This document shows, one piece after another, positions 13,461 through 32,799 of a stretch of 34,768 nucleotides of DNA (its first letter is position 1; every line of letters starts with the position of its first letter). The DNA is from Bacillota bacterium (GTDB taxonomy: Bacteria; Bacillota; Limnochordia; Darwinibacteriales; DTU012). The notes under the pieces were generated by a model. It saw nothing but the letters and a program-made list of their open reading frames with translations. It had not been told where the DNA came from and did not search any database. The position numbers and the translations under genes were made by a program. The stretch covers positions 1-34,768 of the forward strand of contig JAAYNP010000067.1 in assembly GCA_012520795.1 (NCBI GenBank), in the 5' to 3' direction.

Positions 13461-13521
13461 CACCAGTAGCAAACCCCAGTAATTTGGCAACCGGTGGAAG
13501 AAACAAAACCCACTTCGGCAT
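13456..13521 (-). pseudogene. Short relic resembling ICMT-family methyltransferase N-terminus
   Basis: A 21-codon frame encodes VLFLPPVAKLLGFATG, resembling the ILPPVARLLGLAVV segment of the ICMT-like gene at 1028-1510. About 25 of 29 nt also match locally. It then hits a stop and runs into the GNAT relic. Weak but positioned in an obviously decayed stretch. Confidence 0.3.
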
Positions 13522-13682
13522 GCATGCTTCGTTATTGGATAACCAATTCCACCAAATGCAGCATTTTCCTTCACCTTTTAAGTGAACAAGGATTATGCCG
13601 GTCTGTTATCATAGCAGTGGAGGAAATGTTTTTGCATGAAACTAAATGTATACTGAAACCACCGTGCGGGAGGAGGGACACC

Positions 13683-14981
13683 ATGCATTACTCGGACGTG
13701 ATCAAATCAGCGCTGACATATATCGAGCAAAACCTCAAAGCCGACATCACGGCGGAAGAACTGGCGCAGATGGCAGGCTATTCAACCTATCACTATTACC
13801 GTCTGTTCTCAGCTGTGACGGGGTCATCCATTGCGGCCTATATCCTAAAAAGACGCCTTGACCATGCTCTGGCCGAAATCGCTGAAGGCCGTAAAGCCAT
13901 CGATGTAGTGCTCGAATACGGCTTTGATACATATTCCGGGTTTTACAAGGCCTTTGTCAAGATGTATGGCTGCTCCCCGCGGAAGTATTTGAATCTTTAT
14001 CCCGGACACAAACCAACAAAACCGGAGGTGGCATTCATGTATAGCGAAAGCCTGCTGCGCAAGTCATTGGAGAACTGGAATATCGATCTATCTCTGCCCA
14101 TCAGTGACCTCTACTTGGCCAACGGGGCAAAGGTTTCGGGAAATGTCTGGCAAGTCGGTGATGAGTATATTCTCAAAACCGGCCCCCGGGAGAAGCTCCT
14201 CAAAGATCTGACGATATCCGAAGCTCTTCACTCCCAAGGCTTCAATGCTTCAACACCGGTCCTCACCAAGGCAGGGCAAAGATACTTGGAAGGCAAGGAC
14301 ATTTTCGTCTTGACCCGGGGCATTAAAGGTAGCCCGCTCTCTCACGCCGACAGATTTGGCAAGCAGCGGGTTAAGTTTGCCGAACAGTACGGCCGTGCCA
14401 TTGCCAAGTTGCACAAAGCGCTAAGAACCATCCAGGACGACATACTCCCTGATGAGGTGAACCTCTATCAAAATGTGCTTGACTGGTCTCTACCGAGTGT
14501 TCAGCGCCAGAACATCCAATGGAACATGGGCCTTGCCGACAGTTTCTTTGCTGACTATACCGACACTTTTGGCAGACTCTACGGCCAACTGCCCAAACAG
14601 CTGATCCACCGGGATCCCAATCCCAGCAACATACTCTTTCACAACGGCAAGGTTAGCGGGTTCATTGACTTCGAACTGAGCCAGATCAACATCCGATTGT
14701 GGGATGTCTGCTACTGTGCAACGGGGATTCTTTCTGAAGGCAGCCGGGAAGCGTACGGGAAATGGCTGGAGATACTCGGCGGCCTTCTCACTGGGTATGA
14801 CCGTGAAGAAGGGCTGACTGCGGAAGAAAAGCAGGCGGTATTCTACGTCATCTGTTCCATTCAGATGATCTGCATTGCCTATTTCGAAAGCCATGACAAA
14901 TACCGGGAACTTGCCAAGACAAACCGGGAAATGCTGCAGTATATAGCTGAGAACAGAAAACATATTGAGGCGGCCGTTTGA
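13683..14981 (+). CDS. AraC-type HTH fused to aminoglycoside-phosphotransferase-like kinase
   Basis: This 432-residue fusion starts with an AraC/XylS DNA-binding domain at about 1-105. Both HTH units are visible: ITAEELAQMAGYSTYHYYRLF and AIDVVLEYGFDTYSGFYKAF, then CSPRKY. From about 140 to 400 is an APH/choline-kinase fold: Lys165 in YILKTG, HRDPNPSN at 309-316 as the catalytic loop (Asp311, Asn316), and FIDFE at 328-331 for the metal-binding Asp. The key residues are present, so kinase activity is plausible; the substrate (aminoglycoside, amino sugar or other small molecule) is unknown. ATG 13683 follows GGGAGGAGGG; an upstream open frame from 13494 lacks family sequence. It is convergent with the MFS gene. 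Confidence 0.88.
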   Translation: MHYSDVIKSALTYIEQNLKADITAEELAQMAGYSTYHYYRLFSAVTGSSIAAYILKRRLDHALAEIAEGRKAIDVVLEYGFDTYSGFYKAFVKMYGCSPRKYLNLYPGHKPTKPEVAFMYSESLLRKSLENWNIDLSLPISDLYLANGAKVSGNVWQVGDEYILKTGPREKLLKDLTISEALHSQGFNASTPVLTKAGQRYLEGKDIFVLTRGIKGSPLSHADRFGKQRVKFAEQYGRAIAKLHKALRTIQDDILPDEVNLYQNVLDWSLPSVQRQNIQWNMGLADSFFADYTDTFGRLYGQLPKQLIHRDPNPSNILFHNGKVSGFIDFELSQINIRLWDVCYCATGILSEGSREAYGKWLEILGGLLTGYDREEGLTAEEKQAVFYVICSIQMICIAYFESHDKYRELAKTNREMLQYIAENRKHIEAAV

Positions 14982-30038: not shown

Positions 30039-30707
30039 TTAAAGCTGCCTTCGATCCTGATGCTGATCGGAAGCCGGGTGCTTCCGGGATATCCCATATT
30101 GGACAACGTCAATTACCTGGATGGCGGTCTCAAGCAGATATTCGGGTTCTCCAGACGAAACCAGTTTATGGATATTTGCAAACGTAACCTCGATCAGTTT
30201 CACCACAAATCCAGGGGGGTAGCGGCTGTCTATCTGCCCTGACTGCACAGCTTGGTAAACCCATTCGTTAAAGGATTCGTAATAGTTTACGCCAAAAATG
30301 CCGAACAAGCGGCTGCGGAAACCGTCATCTTCCTCCATTAGCCTGCTGGAGAGATGCTGCATCCGCTCATCGTCCAGCATGAACTCAGTGGTTGCTTTTA
30401 TAGCAACTTTAAGGGTGCCGAAAAAATCTGTGGTATCAAGTTTCTCCTGCATAAGCGGATAGAAGTAGGACAGCTTCTTCTGGGTAACGATGTCCATCAC
30501 GGCCGCATATAGCCCGAATTTCCCGCCGAAATGGTGATAGAAGCTGCCTTTGCTTATGCCTGCTTTCTTGAGGATATCATTGAGAGACGCATCGTCATAC
30601 CGCTTTGCGGCGAACTCATCGATCGCCGCTTCTTTAAGCTCTGGGTAGCGCAAGAGCGGATTGCTTTCACCTATGAGGGCATTGTAGTCGAAAGTGCGGT
30701 TTTTCAA
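30039..30707 (-). CDS. TetR family transcriptional regulator
   Basis: This protein of about 222 residues has an N-terminal HTH: ELKEAAIDEFAAKRYDDASL, then NDILKKAGISKGSFYHHFGGKFGLY, the standard TetR helix 2-3 and Y.HF block. The C-terminal ligand-binding domain is diverse. TTG 30707 is chosen because GAGGTG precedes it by 6 nt; GTG 30716 or the frame from 30740 are alternatives. It is the first gene of the exporter operon, and its own promoter carries the palindromic operator, so it probably represses itself and the exporter until a ligand binds. Confidence 0.88.
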   Translation of the reverse strand: MKNRTFDYNALIGESNPLLRYPELKEAAIDEFAAKRYDDASLNDILKKAGISKGSFYHHFGGKFGLYAAVMDIVTQKKLSYFYPLMQEKLDTTDFFGTLKVAIKATTEFMLDDERMQHLSSRLMEEDDGFRSRLFGIFGVNYYESFNEWVYQAVQSGQIDSRYPPGFVVKLIEVTFANIHKLVSSGEPEYLLETAIQVIDVVQYGISRKHPASDQHQDRRQL

Positions 30708-30738
30708 TCGTAACACCTCGTGGATGAGAGTAAAGCGC

Positions 30739-30774
30739 AATTAGACCAGGCAGTCTAAACCACCTGGTCTAATT
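30739..30774. promoter_or_regulatory. Operator of the TetR/exporter operon
   Basis: AATTAGACCAGG (30739-30750) and CCTGGTCTAATT (30763-30774) are perfect 12-bp inverted arms. Inside them TTAGAC-CAGGCA-GTCTAA (30741-30758) is a second palindrome. The site abuts and overlaps the -10 box, a normal place for TetR repression; two dimers may bind. Confidence 0.85.
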
Positions 30775-30801
30775 GTAGCACACATATTCAGCGGGTGTCA
30801 A
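30772..30801 (-). promoter_or_regulatory. Promoter of tetR-ABC operon
   Basis: TTGACA (30801-30796) and TACAAT (30777-30772) are 18 nt apart. The operator begins within the last bases of the -10 element, so repressor binding would block initiation. Confidence 0.82.
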
Positions 30802-30834: not shown

Positions 30835-31733
30835 CTATATCCCATCTCGTGAATAATCGATCAATTCCATGGTCAAATATTCTATACCATGGTAATAATT
30901 CGTAACCGAGTTTGCGTAGACCAGACCAATGTACGGAACAAATTTGATTAATATGTCCTCATCGTTTTGGACAGCGACAAAAATGTAACAGCAGTGTTTT
31001 CCGAGGGAGGGACTATATGGAGTTGGCACCTAGTGCAGCTTGGGTTTATCAAGTTACAAGTAGATTTGAAGAACCTGGTGGATCCACTATGGAGGATCAA
31101 GGTGAGGGAACCCTTGATGTGATTAATTTAGAAATCAAGGAGGACCAAACTGTTTATGAAATGAAGTCAACGTTCAGGTTGGATGAATCAGGAGAACGCG
31201 TAAGCTTCTTCCAATATGTGAAGTTACCTGACTATCGCTACTTCGAGTGGGATGAAGATGATAATCCAAAACTGGCCTTGCAGGCGCCTCTGGATATCGG
31301 GGCCGATCTCATGGGTGGTATTGTGACTGGACAAGAGAAAGTCGATACTCCAATCGGCACCTTCGACGCATGGGTTGCGGAAAGCAGCCCGATTGACGCT
31401 GCCGTTCAGATCGCCCTCCCAGTGGCTGAAAGCCCAGTCCATATCCGGAACAGCTGTTCATATTCTTTGACACTTTCTACTTTTACCATAACTTCCTGAT
31501 CCACTGTTCCATGGCCAATCGTGACAACTACAGTTTATAAACTTTCCTGATTATATCTGTTACAGCAACACCTAAGCCGCCGCTGAAGTTTAGTTTCACA
31601 TCAGGTATTCCGACTCCATTGCTATCAACAACTTGTCCTGATACAGAGTAGACTTCTTTGCTCCTCCCACACAAGCGGTCAATACCATGGACAGCACAAT
31701 CAATACAACAAAACCACTGTTGCTCTTTTTCAT
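30835..31733 (-). pseudogene. Decayed lipoprotein with inverted central segment
   Basis: On the minus strand, ATG 31733 opens a lipoprotein signal (GFVVLIVLSMVLTAC). After a frameshift come YSVSGQVVDSNGVGIPDVKL (carboxypeptidase-regulatory-like) and VTIGHGTVDQEV, then WAFSHWEGDLNGSVN, the first half of an InlB-type divergent repeat. The second half, LDSDKNVTAVFSEGG, is on the plus strand from about 30961. It is followed there by LAPSAAWVYQVTSRF and VDTPIGTFDAWVAES, ending near 31388. The C-terminal end (FVPYIGLVYANS, YLTMELIDYS, stop at 30835) is again on the minus strand. The parts fit one ancestral protein if roughly 30961-31390 is flipped. There are several frameshifts, so it is dead as written. 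Confidence 0.7.
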
Positions 31734-31843
31734 GTAAGCAGCCCCCTTCTTCACATCGCTTTTGTATGTTTCTCACACAACTTGGATAAAGCGGTTTTTA
31801 TTGTTTTTACCGATATTTTCGAATAATTCCTTTAAACAGAATA

Positions 31844-32764
31844 TCACCGCACCAAATTGTCCAAATCGTAGGGAGTCACCTGGTACACATAGTAATTAAG
31901 CCAGTTGGAAAACAAAAGATTGGCATGGCTGCGCCACAGCACCAGCGGCAGCCGATTGGGATCATCCTGTGGGTAATAGTTCTTGGGAATCTCGATCGGC
32001 AGCCCCTTGCTCGCATCCCGCTGATACTCGTTCTGCAGCGTATGGGGATCGTATTCGGCATGGCCGGTGACGAAAATTTGGCTTCCGTACTTGTCGGCCA
32101 CAATGCACACACCCACTTCCTCCGATTCGGCAAGAATCTCCAAGTCCTCGACTTTCTCGATATCCTTCCGCCGGATTTCCGTGTGCCGGGAATGGGGCAT
32201 GAAAAAGCGATCGTCAAAACCGCGAAGCAGCGGAACGTTGGGACGCAACGCATAATGGCTGAAGACACCGAATTGCTTTGCCGGAAGCTGATACTTCGGG
32301 ATCCGGTAGTGGTGGTAGAGCCCGGCCTGAGCCCCCCAGCAGATGTGCAGGACGGAAGTGACGTTCTTCTTGGACCACTCCATGATTTGAGTCAACTCAT
32401 CCCAATAGGCCACTTCTTCAAACTCCATCTGCTCAACGGGAGCCCCGGTAATGATCATCCCGTCAAAGCGCTCGTTCTTGATGGCGCTGAACGTTTTGTA
32501 AAACCGGGACAGGTATTCCGCAGGCGTATTCTTCGCTTGATAAGTCTCGGGATGAAGCAGGACTATTTCCGCCTGCAATGGATTGTTGCCTATTAGGCGC
32601 AGCAGCTGAATTTCGGTTTCTATCTTCGTGGGCATCAGATTCAAGATAATGATCTTCAAAGGGCGGATATCCTGGCTGAGCGCCCTGCTCTCATCCATGA
32701 CGAAAATGCCTTCCCGCTTGAGGACATACTTCGCCGGCAAATCGTTGGGAACCTTGACTGGCAT
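31844..32764 (-). CDS. metA: Homoserine O-acetyltransferase (MetA family)
   Basis: This 306-residue MetA-fold acyltransferase activates homoserine for methionine synthesis. The acyl-enzyme Cys142 lies in [12 protein letters not shown], and His235 and Glu237 in GHAEYD complete the triad. Residue 111 is Glu (ITGAPVEQ), the residue known to select acetyl-CoA; succinyl-specific enzymes have Gly there. This fits the adjacent O-acetylhomoserine sulfhydrylase. ATG 32764 follows AAGGGGG; the frame to 32785 is unnecessary. It is 35 nt behind metY and shares its riboswitch. Confidence 0.95.
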
Positions 32765-32799
32765 ACCGTATTGCCCCCTTTCCAATCCTTCGATTCGAT

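Follow-up and report, generated by a model that had tools for sequence, protein, structure and literature searches.

In-place inversion of the centre of a decayed lipoprotein gene in a Limnochordia bacterium

Terminal inverted repeats, typically of 10-20 nt, delimit the known invertible DNA switches (PMC5903667), and in one study all spontaneous bacterial inversions that were confirmed experimentally had short inverted repeats at their endpoints (PMC3411829). Further literature on bacterial microinversions and intragenic invertons offered general background only. Here we analysed a stretch of DNA of 34,768 nucleotides (the window), which makes up contig C19 in the draft genome of a member of the Bacillota (2.37 Mb, 154 contigs, 99% complete). 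The middle ~426-431 bp of a minus-strand lipoprotein gene in this window was confirmed to be reversed in place, as a first-pass annotation made from the letters alone had claimed. On translation of both strands every gene fragment listed by that annotation was found at its place and on its strand (Table 1), and the lipobox LTAC could be located by inspection at 31671-31682 on the minus strand. The inverted segment contains the end of an InlB-type repeat and most of a DUF3108-like domain.

Table 1. Features of the lipoprotein gene, its fragments and the repeat arms proposed by the first-pass annotation
Feature	Coordinates	Strand	Basis or remark
Whole decayed lipoprotein gene (pseudogene)	30835-31733	minus	translation, homologue and domain searches
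Start codon and lipoprotein signal peptide, MKKSNSG..LTACVGG	31662-31733	minus	sequence
Start of CarboxypepD_reg-like domain, YSVSGQVVDSNG..	31555-31653	minus	frame differs from that of the signal peptide
InlB-type repeat, first part, two frames	31392-31531	minus	profiles, translation
InlB first part, one frame, VVVTIGHG..KEYEQ	31454-31531	minus	translation
InlB first part, other frame, TAVPDMDWAFSHWEGDLNGSVN	31392-31457	minus	translation
Inverted segment, best joint fit	30959-31384	plus	profile grids, Pfam InlB model
InlB repeat, second half, IVLDSDKNVTAVFSEGG	30961-31011	plus	followed by frame change to DYMELAPS
DYMELAPSAAWVYQV...FDAWVAESS	from 31011	plus	translation
PIGTFDAWVAESS	31350-31388	plus	translation
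Final ~40 residues of DUF3108-like domain, DEDILIKFVPYIGLV...IDYSRDGI-stop	30835-30963	minus	homologues, profile, translation
Left 'inverted repeat' arm	30969-30980		codes DSDK, within the flipped segment
Right 'inverted repeat' arm	31393-31403		codes GSVN, outside the flipped segment

The gene lies between a homoserine O-succinyltransferase gene (31844-32785, PF04204) and a gene for a TetR-type regulator (30039-30740, PF00440), both recognized by Pfam search, and the minus strand of the ~1.1 kb between these neighbours lacks any long open frame. No second copy of the lipoprotein gene was found in the genome, and in four congeners neither the whole gene nor its C-terminal domain was found to have a homologue; the InlB stretch was the only part matched there, inside another protein. 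In congener G003, 6.7 kb containing other genes separates the two neighbours, and synteny comparison showed the lipoprotein gene to be absent from the corresponding neighbourhoods of G003 and G004; therefore the ancestral order is seen in no congener. The first-pass annotation had pointed to the orthologous locus in relatives for comparison: the neighbourhoods in these two congeners hold no such gene, and it is intact homologues elsewhere that carry the C-terminal domain contiguously. A perfect 13-bp inverted repeat (CAATTAGACCAGG-12-CCTGGTCTAATTG, 30738-30775) was also observed where the TetR gene starts; it overlaps a sequence resembling a strong promoter (30801-30772, minus strand), has a similar stretch adjoining the TetR gene of G003 (86% over 36 bp) and is probably a TetR operator. 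Elsewhere in the window a 495-aa ORF (13494-14981, plus strand) combines two domains in a pairing that looks uncommon, a DNA-binding domain of AraC type (PF12833) and an APH phosphotransferase domain (PF01636).

A phylum-wide search yielded relatives of the C-terminal domain, of which L011 (E 8e-10), L012 (9e-10) and L014 (6e-7) are intact and align without a break over the second junction once this has been restored; the motif GxFxA...P-x-GxV is common to the rejoined sequence and all three. When the sequence was left as observed, L012 matched two pieces separately, on opposite strands. L011 (a 302-aa ORF) and L014 (343 aa) also have the same lipoprotein head (YSVSGKITDADGKGIGG...), with a signal/lipobox, a YSVSG-type first domain and a C-terminal domain with DYxG, GxFxA and Px-GxV motifs, but in both the InlB repeat is missing and the gene is uninterrupted. 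Both resemble CarboxypepD_reg and DUF3108_like in Pfam, L011 reaching the DUF3108_like cut-off (27.0 of 27). In the window, CarboxypepD_reg (PF13620) scored 16.4 bits (E 0.012) against a cut-off of 32.3, with half of the domain missing, and DUF3108_like (PF21347) scored 14.5 bits against 27; the CarboxypepD_reg part is 49% identical to L011 over 41 residues. The plasmid, viral-contig, PDB and genome-contig scans produced no closer relative.

A head composed of CarboxypepD_reg and InlB (PF18998) was found in L002, L003, L083 and L084, subtilisin-like and other lipoproteins of the genus or order, which are intact and differ from the present gene in having other C-terminal domains. The head of L002 matches that of the window down to FSHWEGDLxGSxN, and the two halves of its TAVPETGWVFSHWEGDLQGSANPAVLTIDSPQEILAVF correspond to the two InlB pieces that lie on opposite strands here. 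Within the genus, this head seems to act as a swapped module. In congener G004, the lipoproteins with this type of head and another C-terminal domain (L083, 4456-5430, and L084, 4424-5392) each lie immediately downstream of a large gene, which by eye resembles an FAD-dependent oxidoreductase.

The inversion could be quantified with a C-domain profile built from homologues in other genomes, the window being left out. The observed sequence scored 42.3 bits (profile positions 2-127), and re-inversion in silico raised this to up to 63.8 bits (positions 2-174). When 2000 inversions were placed at random in the region, only one reached this range, with 61.2 bits at 30982/31388, beside the inferred breakpoints. 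Similarly, the joint score of InlB and the C-domain increased from 75.4 bits as observed to 108.7 bits at 30959/31384, the random median being 66.5, with an optimum that forms a plateau at p 30952-30965 and q 31379-31391 (p+q about 62343). At this joint optimum the InlB repeat has its full length (GSVNRAVIVLDSDKNVTAVF), and the Pfam model PF18998 goes from 11.7 bits as found to 24.6 bits rejoined, above its cut-off of 23.6. GC skew changes sign with the change of strand, from +0.21 at 31000-31399 to -0.31 at 31400-31799. The first-pass annotation had suggested that flipping would restore the InlB repeat across one junction and the reading across the other, and that re-inversion followed by a homologue search should improve the alignment; both junctions and the search bore this out, with breakpoints close to the ones it gave.

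The frameshift decay that it had reported is equally evident. Frame changes were found at about 31654-31661 (between signal peptide and first domain), at about 31454-31457 (within the InlB repeat) and, on translation, near 31011, several of them away from the junctions, and the CarboxypepD_reg-like domain lacks its second half, about 40 codons, when compared with its relatives. Neither orientation gives an intact gene, the frame changes and the deletion outside the segment being present in both, and the lipoprotein gene is a pseudogene that is functional no longer.

The locus is very likely a secreted-lipoprotein pseudogene in which the central ~426-431 bp underwent a single, in-place inversion, either non-homologous or by template switch. 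The ancestral gene would have encoded, in this order, a signal peptide, a CarboxypepD_reg-like domain, an InlB-type repeat and a DUF3108-like C-terminal domain. Rejoining after a double-strand break (non-homologous end) or replication template switching may then have flipped the segment without the use of repeats, presumably as a one-time event, and the gene would also have gained its at least three frame changes and its internal deletion of ~40 codons. As a minor variant, the breakpoints may be placed at a 4-bp inverted microhomology (ATCG at 30961-30964 and CGAT at 31390-31393); a join there disrupts the reading frame at both junctions and matches the profiles more poorly.

It is unlikely that the inversion is an artefact of assembly or amplification, with the segment uninverted in the real chromosome. 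The genome is indeed a draft in 154 contigs, but the junctions carry no inverted repeat of at least 12 bp that could mislead an assembler, such an error would need two matching, unaided chimeric joins, and frame changes that have nothing to do with the flip disrupt the gene as well.

We consider it very improbable that the segment served, or in other strains still serves, as a reversible intragenic switch whose recombination sites are highly degenerate, or that the flipped piece has turned into a new 160-aa ORF that is expressed from the opposite strand; an ORF of this size (31017-31499, plus strand) is created by the flipped segment. In a former phase switch, a recombinase acting on inverted repeats would have switched expression of the lipoprotein by flipping the segment, before the locus decayed. 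Such a switch, which the first-pass annotation had suggested, has hardly any likelihood left, even though the size of ~430 bp and a surface lipoprotein as target fit such switches and the other orientation must once have existed for the gene. The letters of the two short inverted repeats that it reported near the junctions are indeed present, but they are no better than chance: around the junctions the local inverted-repeat score is 7.0, and random positions in the window average 7.95 (P 0.86). Since one arm lies inside the segment and the other outside, re-inversion turns them into direct repeats beside a single junction of the restored gene (GGCAGCGTCAA...GGACAGCGACAA); the arms could not mediate a reversible flip, because a pair of recombination sites must stay inverted in both states, and on this evidence the left arm is no recombination site. 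A crossover at the inner edges of these arms was considered, with which both junctions can be read in frame, and was rejected, as this would cost InlB ten conserved residues (N..IVLDSD), whose occurrence on the plus strand would have to be put down to coincidence. The breakpoints themselves have a symmetric score of 4 (null mean 4.6, P 0.91), and no inverted repeat of at least 12 nt was found to flank the segment. A search of the genome for serine recombinases (PF00239) detected none, while the same search was positive in 10 of 14 control genomes, and the only tyrosine recombinase genes (PF00589) are two on another contig, C124, with none on the contig of the window. They encode proteins of 311 and 322 aa, the usual size for Xer proteins. 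A switch would also leave neither orientation intact, given the lesions elsewhere in the gene. The switch reading is thus not supported. That the locus consists of two separate decayed genes, the 160-aa ORF being an independent gene inserted in another pseudogene, is barely credible: this ORF has an ATG preceded by GGGAGG, but the pieces are complementary to within a few residues at both ends without overlap or duplication, homologues carry both C-domain pieces contiguously in a single protein, and the last ~35 codons of the ORF are antisense to the InlB half.

The in-place inversion described here is a clean and quantifiable example, within a bacterial pseudogene, of a small inversion that no repeats flank, and it teaches that apparent inverted repeats near an inversion call for a check of whether they fall on one side of the breakpoints. 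It represents ordinary genome decay with a tidy rearrangement, and its wider consequence is small. With the invertible DNA switches that act by conservative site-specific recombination (PMC5903667) the locus has in common that a few hundred bp are flipped inside a surface-protein gene, whereas terminal inverted repeats, a nearby candidate invertase and an intact state are absent here. In the confirmed spontaneous bacterial chromosomal inversions (PMC3411829) inverted repeats are present at the endpoints and none is visible here; therefore, either such repeats have decayed or the event was repeat-free or followed another mechanism, and what the locus would share with these cases is a one-off inversion in a clone.
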